Source: Dyella acidisoli
GTDB taxonomy: Bacteria; Pseudomonadota; Gammaproteobacteria; Xanthomonadales; Rhodanobacteraceae
Reading direction: 5' to 3'
Assembly (NCBI RefSeq): GCF_030160295.1
Contig: NZ_BSOB01000050.1
Location: 62,001-126,000 of the forward strand
Length of the DNA: 64,000 nucleotides
Below, one piece after another: positions 20,400-21,283 of the stretch; position 1 is the first letter of the stretch; every line of letters begins with the position of its first letter. Both the position numbers and the translations under genes were made by a program. The notes below the pieces were generated by a model that was given only the letters and a program-made list of their open reading frames with translations, did no database searches and was not told the DNA's origin.

Positions 20400-20618
20400 T
20401 CACTTCATGCGGTAGGTAATGCGGCCCTTGGTAAGGTCATAGGGGGTCATTTCCACCTTCACCTTGTCGCCAGTGAGAATGCGAATGTAATGCTTGCGCA
20501 TGCGGCCGGAGATATGGGCAATCACGACATGGCCATTTTCCAGCTTCACTCGAAACATGGTGTTGGGTAGGGTCTCTACGACCGTACCATCCATTTCAAT
20601 GACGTCGTCTTTGGCCAT
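20400..20618 (-). CDS. infA: Translation initiation factor IF-1
   Basis: 72 aa from [13 protein letters not shown] at 20618, exactly the IF-1 length; an in-frame start 15 codons upstream is rejected on length and homology. One S1/OB-fold domain ending [12 protein letters not shown]. It binds the 30S A site during initiation. The clpS-clpA / infA convergent arrangement is conserved in gammaproteobacteria. A Shine-Dalgarno is not obvious. Confidence 0.97.
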
Positions 20619-21004
20619 GCGTTCCGGGAGGTGTGCGCGGGCCACCATGGCCGCGTAAGCCATCCATTATGCCACGTAACAGGGGCGGGTCAAAGAAATT
20701 AGGCTGAGGGATGCTCTGATCTATTCCACGCACCCGTCACCGCACTGTATGCGCGCAGCAGTTTGTCGCAGCGGGGAAGGCAGACTGGCTGTCTGTCGAG
20801 ACGCTGGGGCAAACTGCTGCGCGCATACAGTGCGGCCCCAACGTGTTGAATTTAATGGCGGGGTGACCTCCAGAAGGCTCGCAGGCTGTGCCGCGTGGCT
20901 TGAACAGGCCAGTCTGCCCTGCGCCACGCAACACACCCTGCGGGCCTTCTGGACGTCATGCCGGGTACGTGGAATAGATCAGAGCATCCCTAAGATCCAA
21001 ACAC
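20619..21004. other. 386-bp gap upstream of infA, mostly filled by a nested repeat element
   Basis: Apart from about 88 bp next to infA, where its promoter should be, this space is occupied by the element at 20707-20991. Frames open through it are short, Cys/Arg-rich and follow the palindromes, so I do not call a gene. Confidence 0.6.
20707..20991. repeat. 285-bp nested inverted-repeat element with two inner hairpins
   Basis: The outer ends are a perfect 24-bp inverted repeat (20707-20730 with 20968-20991; begins AGGGATGCTCTGATC). Inside, hairpin 1 has a perfect 26-bp stem (20740-20765 with 20810-20835; begins CCGCACTGTATGCGC). Hairpin 2 has a 16-bp stem with one mismatch (20870-20885 with 20937-20952) and an inner stem GCGTGGC/GCCACGC (20893-20899, 20923-20929). 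The loop of hairpin 1 contains GGCAGACTGGC (20779-20789) and the loop of hairpin 2 its exact complement GCCAGTCTGCC (20908-20918). A second copy was not noticed in this window. Candidates are a MITE-like element or a structured RNA. Confidence 0.85.
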
Positions 21005-21283
21005 TCAGGAGAAATGTTCGTCCAGCTTGCGCCGGATCTCCTGTTCAATCATGCCCTTGAGCGGGGAAAACAGCATGCCCAGCTGCGCGCTCACTTGGAT
21101 TTCATCGCCGCCGATAGCGATCTTGCCGTTGATGCCGGGGCGGTCGAAGCTCAGCGTGCTGTCGTTCTGCCATTGTGTCTGGACCTGGAACTTCTCACGC
21201 ATGCGCGTGGCAACCTGGTCAATCACGGCGTGTGCTTCGGCAGCGGACAAACGGTGCGGACGGCGGATTTCGATACTGGGCAT
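21005..21283 (-). CDS. Polyhydroxyalkanoic acid system family protein
   Basis: 92 aa, whole-length match in character to the PHA_gran_rgn family (PSIEIRRPHRLSAAEAHAVID, then SFDRPGINGKIAIGGDEIQV and a C-terminal EQEIRRKLDEHF). Members occur near polyhydroxyalkanoate genes but also alone in xanthomonads; no PHA synthase is present here. Monogenic; the nested repeat element ends 13 bp after its stop. Molecular function is not known. Confidence 0.75.
   Translation of the reverse strand: MPSIEIRRPHRLSAAEAHAVIDQVATRMREKFQVQTQWQNDSTLSFDRPGINGKIAIGGDEIQVSAQLGMLFSPLKGMIEQEIRRKLDEHFS

Follow-up and report, generated by a model that had tools for sequence, protein, structure and literature searches.

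An IS5-Type MITE of Dyella and Its Relatives with an Interior Predicted To Fold as a Four-Way Junction

INTRODUCTION

Short mobile repeats are usually regarded as deletion products of transposons, with ends that are selected and an inside that drifts. Among the described families closest to the element reported here, Correia/NEMIS, ERIC, RUP, and BOX are intergenic and give long stem-loop transcripts; in the accessible text of the sources, NEMIS and ERIC are reported to influence mRNA cleavage and BOX is modular (PMC2229807, PMC3049150). A second group, the REP sequences with their REPIN and BIME arrangements and the TnpA-REP (RAYT) proteins, is built on two inverted palindromic units, each with a sense strand (accessible text of PMC8266576).

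We examined a repeat element in a 64,000-nt stretch of Dyella acidisoli DNA (the window) and compared it with its copies in other genomes. In this element it is the inside that is conserved, and the ends vary between clades. By its ends, copies, and target duplications, the element is a MITE of IS5 type, and selection appears to hold its interior to an exact fold with four arms. Our main reading, to which we give a probability of roughly 0.55, is that it belongs to a superfamily of MITEs mobilised by IS5-type transposases, inside which selection maintains a structured module of RNA (or single-stranded DNA) able to act in either orientation; the function of that module is one we infer. No description of this repeat family was found in the non-subscription literature searched.

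RESULTS

Structure of the copy in the window

The element, one copy of the repeat, occupies positions 20707 to 20991 (285 bp, no strand assigned), as delimited by its sequence, its other copies, and a site that is empty in relatives. Its coding capacity consists of overlapping short frames only. The first 24 bases are the exact reverse complement of the last 24, as the preliminary description had stated, and they belong to a left terminal inverted repeat that doubles as the 5' side of a terminal stem (20707 to 20739, plus strand) and a right one that doubles as its 3' side (20959 to 20991, minus strand; delimited by arm and fold analysis). The window copy is predicted to fold as a four-way junction with the closing pair 20739/20959 and three branches: hairpin A (20740 to 20835, plus strand), whose tip is a TGGCT loop with a mini-stem; a small centre hairpin (CCCC..GGGG; 20836 to 20863, no strand assigned), present in both the alignment fold and the window fold; and hairpin B (20864 to 20958, minus strand), which in the window copy is short of 3 nt of tip stem.

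The other features first noted in this copy are all present. The perfect 26-bp hairpin has arms at 20740 and 20810 without mismatch, and the complementary loops are as described: GGCAGACTGGC lies at 20779, and the sequence at 20908 is its exact complement. The second hairpin, given as 16 bp and near-perfect, is present, but its length had been understated: the arms span 41 nt (20859 to 20899 with 20923 to 20963) and are 83% complementary. The minimum free energy of the element was −210.8 kcal/mol, against a mean of −114.1 (SD, 4.8) for dinucleotide shuffles (z = −20; equalled by 0 of 200 shuffles). Hairpin A had a predicted energy of −81.6 kcal/mol as the plus strand versus −67.4 as the minus strand, and hairpin B (20862 to 20958) one of −76.5 kcal/mol as the minus strand versus −63.4 as the plus strand. 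At the gathering score, Rfam gave no family for the window stretch, for 6 loci, or for 20 loci.

Copies and distribution

A blastn search of the element's own genome gave 58 matches, and the best 24 of these fell in 23 distinct places. The end sequences, sought in the same genome with up to 3 mismatches, were found 23 times in forward and 24 times in reverse orientation (47), compared with 0 and 0 for a reversed-pattern control. In total, 22 of the 61 genomes searched (own included) carried the element: 15 of 16 in the genus and 7 others. The 19-base tip core was found in at least 108 stretches of genome contigs, and the 80 listed titles with this core were mostly Dyella and Rhodanobacter, along with Frateuria, Mizugakiibacter, and unclassified bins of Lysobacterales; among the few remaining titles, L159 and L185 are chance matches, and L135, from an Eremiobacteraeota bin, carries a genuine copy. 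Five of 109 core matches (L159, L185, L189, L206, and L217), which were chance-like and without hairpin arms, were dropped before counting. A phage or plasmid origin was rejected: the plasmid and phage collections held no match to the element at an E value of 1e-5, and one viral contig has the 19-mer but no hairpin arms.

Both ends could be placed in 114 elements. By length these group around 267 and 285 bp, and 8 of them, with 149 to 160 bp, have a single hairpin. The same interior carries two kinds of ends, GGATGCTCTGATC and GGCAACGCTGATCAAG.

Target sites and an IS5-type partner

CTAG and TTAA were the commonest target flanks of these 114 elements. YTAR was found on both sides in 34 of them and as an identical 4-mer in 28, while identical flanking 4-mers of any kind were found in 30, compared with 9.1 expected by shuffling (maximum, 18). 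The flanks of the window copy are degenerate (TGAG/CTAA). At the homologous site the element was absent from all 13 genus relatives compared, 12 of which have just 3 to 34 nt between the flanks; one such empty site reads GATCTAGGATCC. At the homologous infA site of L254 there are ∼170 nt of different sequence, perhaps another insertion there.

A MITE was among the candidates of the preliminary description, and the properties by which such elements are recognised were all found, namely, inverted ends, a non-coding interior, multiple dispersed copies, YTAR target duplications, and empty sites. Ends in common with an IS5-family element were found in relatives, where IS5_4-family transposase elements have GGATGCTCTGA-type ends with YTAR duplications. 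One of these (L269) has the ends GGATGCTCTGAACAATTA and GGATGCTCTGATTTATTC, and another (L270) has GGATGCTCTGATTTATTCCC and GGATGCTCTGATCAATGAAG with CTAA on both sides; L270 is the best partner, and its genome also holds the repeat. The transposase frame of L083/L269 ends short of the profile end. Within the element's own genome, no partner insertion sequence with matching ends was found: two PF05598 genes there encode proteins 34 to 37% identical to the L083 transposase, and their ends do not match. Two solo end sequences of that genome, read for frames as possible ends of autonomous copies, had no transposase.

Two further repeats were seen in the course of these comparisons. In G046, a genome from the same order but a different family (L063, L064, L065, and other loci), an unrelated MITE of ∼265 bp with the ends GGAAGCTCTGATCAATTC has the end type of the Dyella element and a different interior. 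In a same-genus genome (L059 to L062), short palindromes such as GGAAGCTCTGATTTATTCAGAGCTTCC resemble two joined ends without an interior.

Covariation across copies

From the 114 elements we drew 58 non-redundant ones of 275 to 296 bp and aligned 57 of them (L136 was left out). RNAalifold predicted 97 pairs in four helices, with no unpaired columns at the junction. Across the 57 copies, 97.6% of cells were paired, and 73 of the 97 pairs had double changes, against up to 43.7 in shuffles and at most 38 in slid structures; the fold was predicted from the same alignment that was used for these counts, and the copies are related by descent. Covariation was 0.437, compared with 0.136 for shuffled alignments and at most 0.068 for slid structures. 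Mean pairwise identity was 0.95 and 0.92 at the junction, 0.83 to 0.92 at the tips, and 0.48 to 0.79 in the stems. The stems vary yet stay paired, and the junction and tips are conserved. The preliminary description would have left the element as a chance or an artefact if neither homologues nor compensatory changes existed; both were found. The predicted four-way-junction fold is well supported, and covariation across the 57 copies backs selection on a folded single strand.

A second clade of elements

A second clade has the same overall plan at ∼265 bp, with other ends (GAGCCTG, GGGCGTG, or similar) and a left hairpin unrelated to A. A search for this clade gave at least 54 loci, with the strict motif in 30 and ends in 28; 20 copies of 262 to 269 bp were aligned, one of which (L308) lies in the genome of a different family. 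The same gapless four-way junction was predicted, 71 of 107 pairs had double changes, and the stems were paired in 373 of 380, 319 of 340, and 262 of 278 cells. Covariation, as expected of a structured RNA, was above controls in both clades. A covariance model of hairpin B, built from 33 of 46 sequences, had matches in 24 of 151 genomes of the order at an E value of 1e-6; 11 of the 14 loci from this search were read, and weak matches fell in further families (f4, f5, f8, f9, f10, and f12). A DUF4096 (PF13340) transposase was considered as the partner of the second clade and is not supported, because it was seen in just 1 of 12 genomes. One genome (G028) carries seven copies (L342 to L348) whose hairpin B outer stems and terminal stems differ from copy to copy, each matched to itself.

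A nested 46-nt repeat, YACGCGGGGAG-N4-CATGGATG-N4-CGGCTTTGAGGAGCGAGGA, was seen inside three unrelated palindromic repeats, with a stem that is hypervariable yet complementary (L136, L183, L208, L218, L226, L312, and other loci). Of the 44 copies seen, 19 interrupt hairpin A at G|A sites, while CCCTCTCCCC..GGGGTGAGGGG contains 16, CGTCATTCC..GGAATCC contains 6, and 3 are in other places. Hairpin C and the centres of second-clade elements contain it as well, and it is a repeat parasitising other repeats.

Opposite strand preferences of the two hairpins

By predicted energy, hairpin A was more stable on the plus strand in 56 of the 57 copies and hairpin B on the minus strand in 55; because the copies have common ancestry, 56 of 57 does not amount to 57 independent tests. 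In the second clade, the left hairpin preferred the plus strand and B the minus strand in 20 of 20 copies each, and the preference of B extended to all 28 copies with ends found. Of the second-clade loci without ends, L309 agrees on the B strand and L305, a false motif match, does not.

These preferences come from the inner stems. The inner part of the left hairpin tolerates G-U and not A-C on one strand, and that of the right hairpin does so on the opposite strand. For the groups of hairpins used (102 of 138 A tips, comprising 71 "old" and 31 "new," and 67 of 81 B tips), inferred changes to G-T versus A-C in the inner stems, on the sense strand of each hairpin, were 71:4 in B, 48:13 in old A, and 22:12 in new A, compared with 7:5, 15:13, and 6:3, respectively, in the outer stems. 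G-T and A-C mismatches present in the outer stems were similarly even, at 16:16 (old A) and 8:6 (B). Changes from A-T parents in the inner stems gave G-T in 30 cases versus A-C in 8, and a plain C-to-T bias therefore does not account for the preference; within the new A group, A-T-parent changes do not favour G-T (3:5). A crude count over unaligned arms gave no preference for hairpin A (G-T, 165; A-C, 174) and a strong one for B. The preference of A emerged once the count was restricted to paired columns; among the excluded columns are some fixed for G-T and, at the base of the stem, for A-C. Mismatches between the left and right ends lean to G-T (91 versus 50), mainly at positions 23 and 24, while end-duplex energies are equal between strands (25 versus 26 elements) and the outer arms and terminal stem have little preference.

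The same data bear on two other accounts of the element. The main rival, an account of low probability, is a single-stranded DNA substrate whose hairpins a protein would read as folded DNA in replication or transposition, like the REP/iREP pairs of REPINs and BIMEs or other folded recombination sites, with the IS5-like ends as cleavage sites or a later shell. Two similar inverted hairpins, each with a sense strand, are the REP/iREP arrangement (accessible text of PMC8266576), folded DNA likewise tolerates G-T better than A-C, and the 46-nt repeat recurs in hairpin A internal loops (19 of the 44 copies seen). Against these points, a survey of 30 Y1-transposase loci out to 1.5 kb found neither the 46-mer nor the motif of hairpin A or C at any of them (the matches there were a single loose one to the B tip at L373 and a single 12-mer at L380), no GTAG-type guide was noticed by eye beside the hairpins, and the outer stems are without strand preference. 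A REPIN/BIME or REP/RAYT element proper was rejected, given the lack of association at the 30 Y1 loci, a different unit size, and no GTAG guide by eye. An integron cassette site (attC) is disfavoured by the target duplications and the IS5-like ends.

Next after folded DNA, and also improbable, comes a passive MITE in which correction between the arms, through template switching or gene conversion, would keep the palindromes perfect and give paired changes without selection. Such correction fits the long perfect arms, the equality of G-T and A-C in the outer stems of old A and B, and arms that are hypervariable but matched within one genome. Arm correction would not be expected to conserve a junction without gaps, the internal loops, and the tips, or to give the inner stems opposite strand preferences.

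Hairpin tips

Complementarity between the two loops had led to the proposal of a kissing-loop RNA. Hairpins A and B have the same tip, TGGCY with a short closing stem, inverted relative to each other, and the loops are complementary because of this arrangement. The exact 11-nt complement is found in the window copy and in 17 of 86 two-tip elements, of which 83 and 80 have intact local stems. In the 57 copies, double changes are absent from all 11 loop-loop pairs, pairing between the loops is equal to that of the shuffled control (90.5 versus 90.5%), and 32 copies fail to pair at column 81-226. The local tip stems do covary (29 double-change cells), including at 212-226 (A-T, 31; C-G, 25), which involves the same column that breaks in loop-loop pairing. 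The kissing idea fails: each "loop" is a tip that has a mini-stem of its own, and as a result no loop-loop pair covaries and one is broken in 32 of 57 copies. We regard the idea as very improbable.

Gene context

To the left of the element lies the infA (IF-1) reading frame (20400 to 20663, minus strand; identified by frame and domain), whose usual start is probably an inner Met near 20618, judging from the usual IF-1 N terminus. The upstream neighbour is a PHA_gran_rgn protein gene (21005 to 21283, minus strand) with its stop codon 14 bp from the element's right end. A sigma-70-like promoter, probably that of infA, was assigned by consensus match at 20666 to 20693 (minus strand), 14 bp beyond the element's left end; 1 match was found versus 0.4 expected by chance, and each of the two hexamers is conserved in 12 of the 13 relatives without the element. 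That the element is a cis-regulatory leader RNA of infA, an earlier suggestion in keeping with its place upstream of infA on the coding strand, is the least probable account of all, since the probable infA promoter separates it from the gene, the site is without the element in the 13 relatives compared, and copies adjoin many other genes.

By crude gene calls, 57 of 96 classified copies lie between codirectional genes, 28 between divergent ones, and 11 between convergent ones. By the same calls, among the codirectional copies the side turned to the 3' end of the upstream gene is B in 39 and A in 18. Over all 96, the A side points to gene starts in 67 cases versus 29, and convergent gaps show no enrichment (11 of 96 versus a background of 97 of 518). 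Given these last two counts, a pure 3'-end role is not indicated.

DISCUSSION

Under our main reading, that of an IS5-mobilised MITE with a selected structured module, an IS5-family transposase supplied in trans would move the element by its ends, and the module would fold alike in either orientation and act on RNA. A transcript entering from the left would meet A in sense first, and one entering from the right would meet B first; a module acting on RNA in either orientation is favoured because each entering transcript meets its own-strand hairpin first. In the window, a minus-strand PHA_gran_rgn transcript would enter via hairpin B, 14 bp past the stop codon. The simplest role would be that of a folded 3'-end or intergenic barrier or a processing site, and a host factor would presumably read the tip (UGGCY loop and CRAG internal loop) together with the junction.

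A more specific version is tentative and more likely wrong than right. The elements may constitute a mobile superfamily of double-sided RNAs in which each strand is a four-way-junction RNA with a conserved recognition tip on its 5' hairpin, working whichever way it is inserted, and which has spread by changing its IS5-type ends through several Xanthomonadales genera. An inside that is conserved while the ends differ between clades suggests that selection acts on the structured module as its unit, with the transposases as interchangeable carriers. If true, this would be a route for a structured RNA module to spread and land beside many genes. Hundreds of natural variants with compensated stems make the reading testable, and the opposite strand preferences predict which hairpin matters for each direction of transcription.

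Compared with the REP, REPIN, and BIME elements served by RAYT proteins, which it resembles in its two inverted palindromic units with a sense strand each, the Dyella element differs in having units of ∼95 nt rather than 20 to 50 nt, IS5-like ends, target duplications, and no Y1 association (30 loci). It shares with Correia/NEMIS, ERIC, RUP, and BOX an intergenic, mobile, stem-loop character; those families are listed at ∼100 to 200 bp and were compared by description only, and their descriptions in the accessible text contain no four-way junction, covariation, or strand-opposed hairpins (PMC2229807, PMC3049150). With IS5-mobilised MITEs it has in common a non-coding length of 150 to 330 bp, IS5_4-like inverted ends, YTAR duplications, empty sites, and many copies. 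It differs from them in its four-way-junction fold with hairpins on opposite strands, in a junction and tips more conserved than the stems, and in the several end types found on one interior. In its fold and its conservation, the element is unlike the MITE families compared by description, as these appear in the accessible text of the sources (PMC2229807, PMC3049150, PMC8266576).
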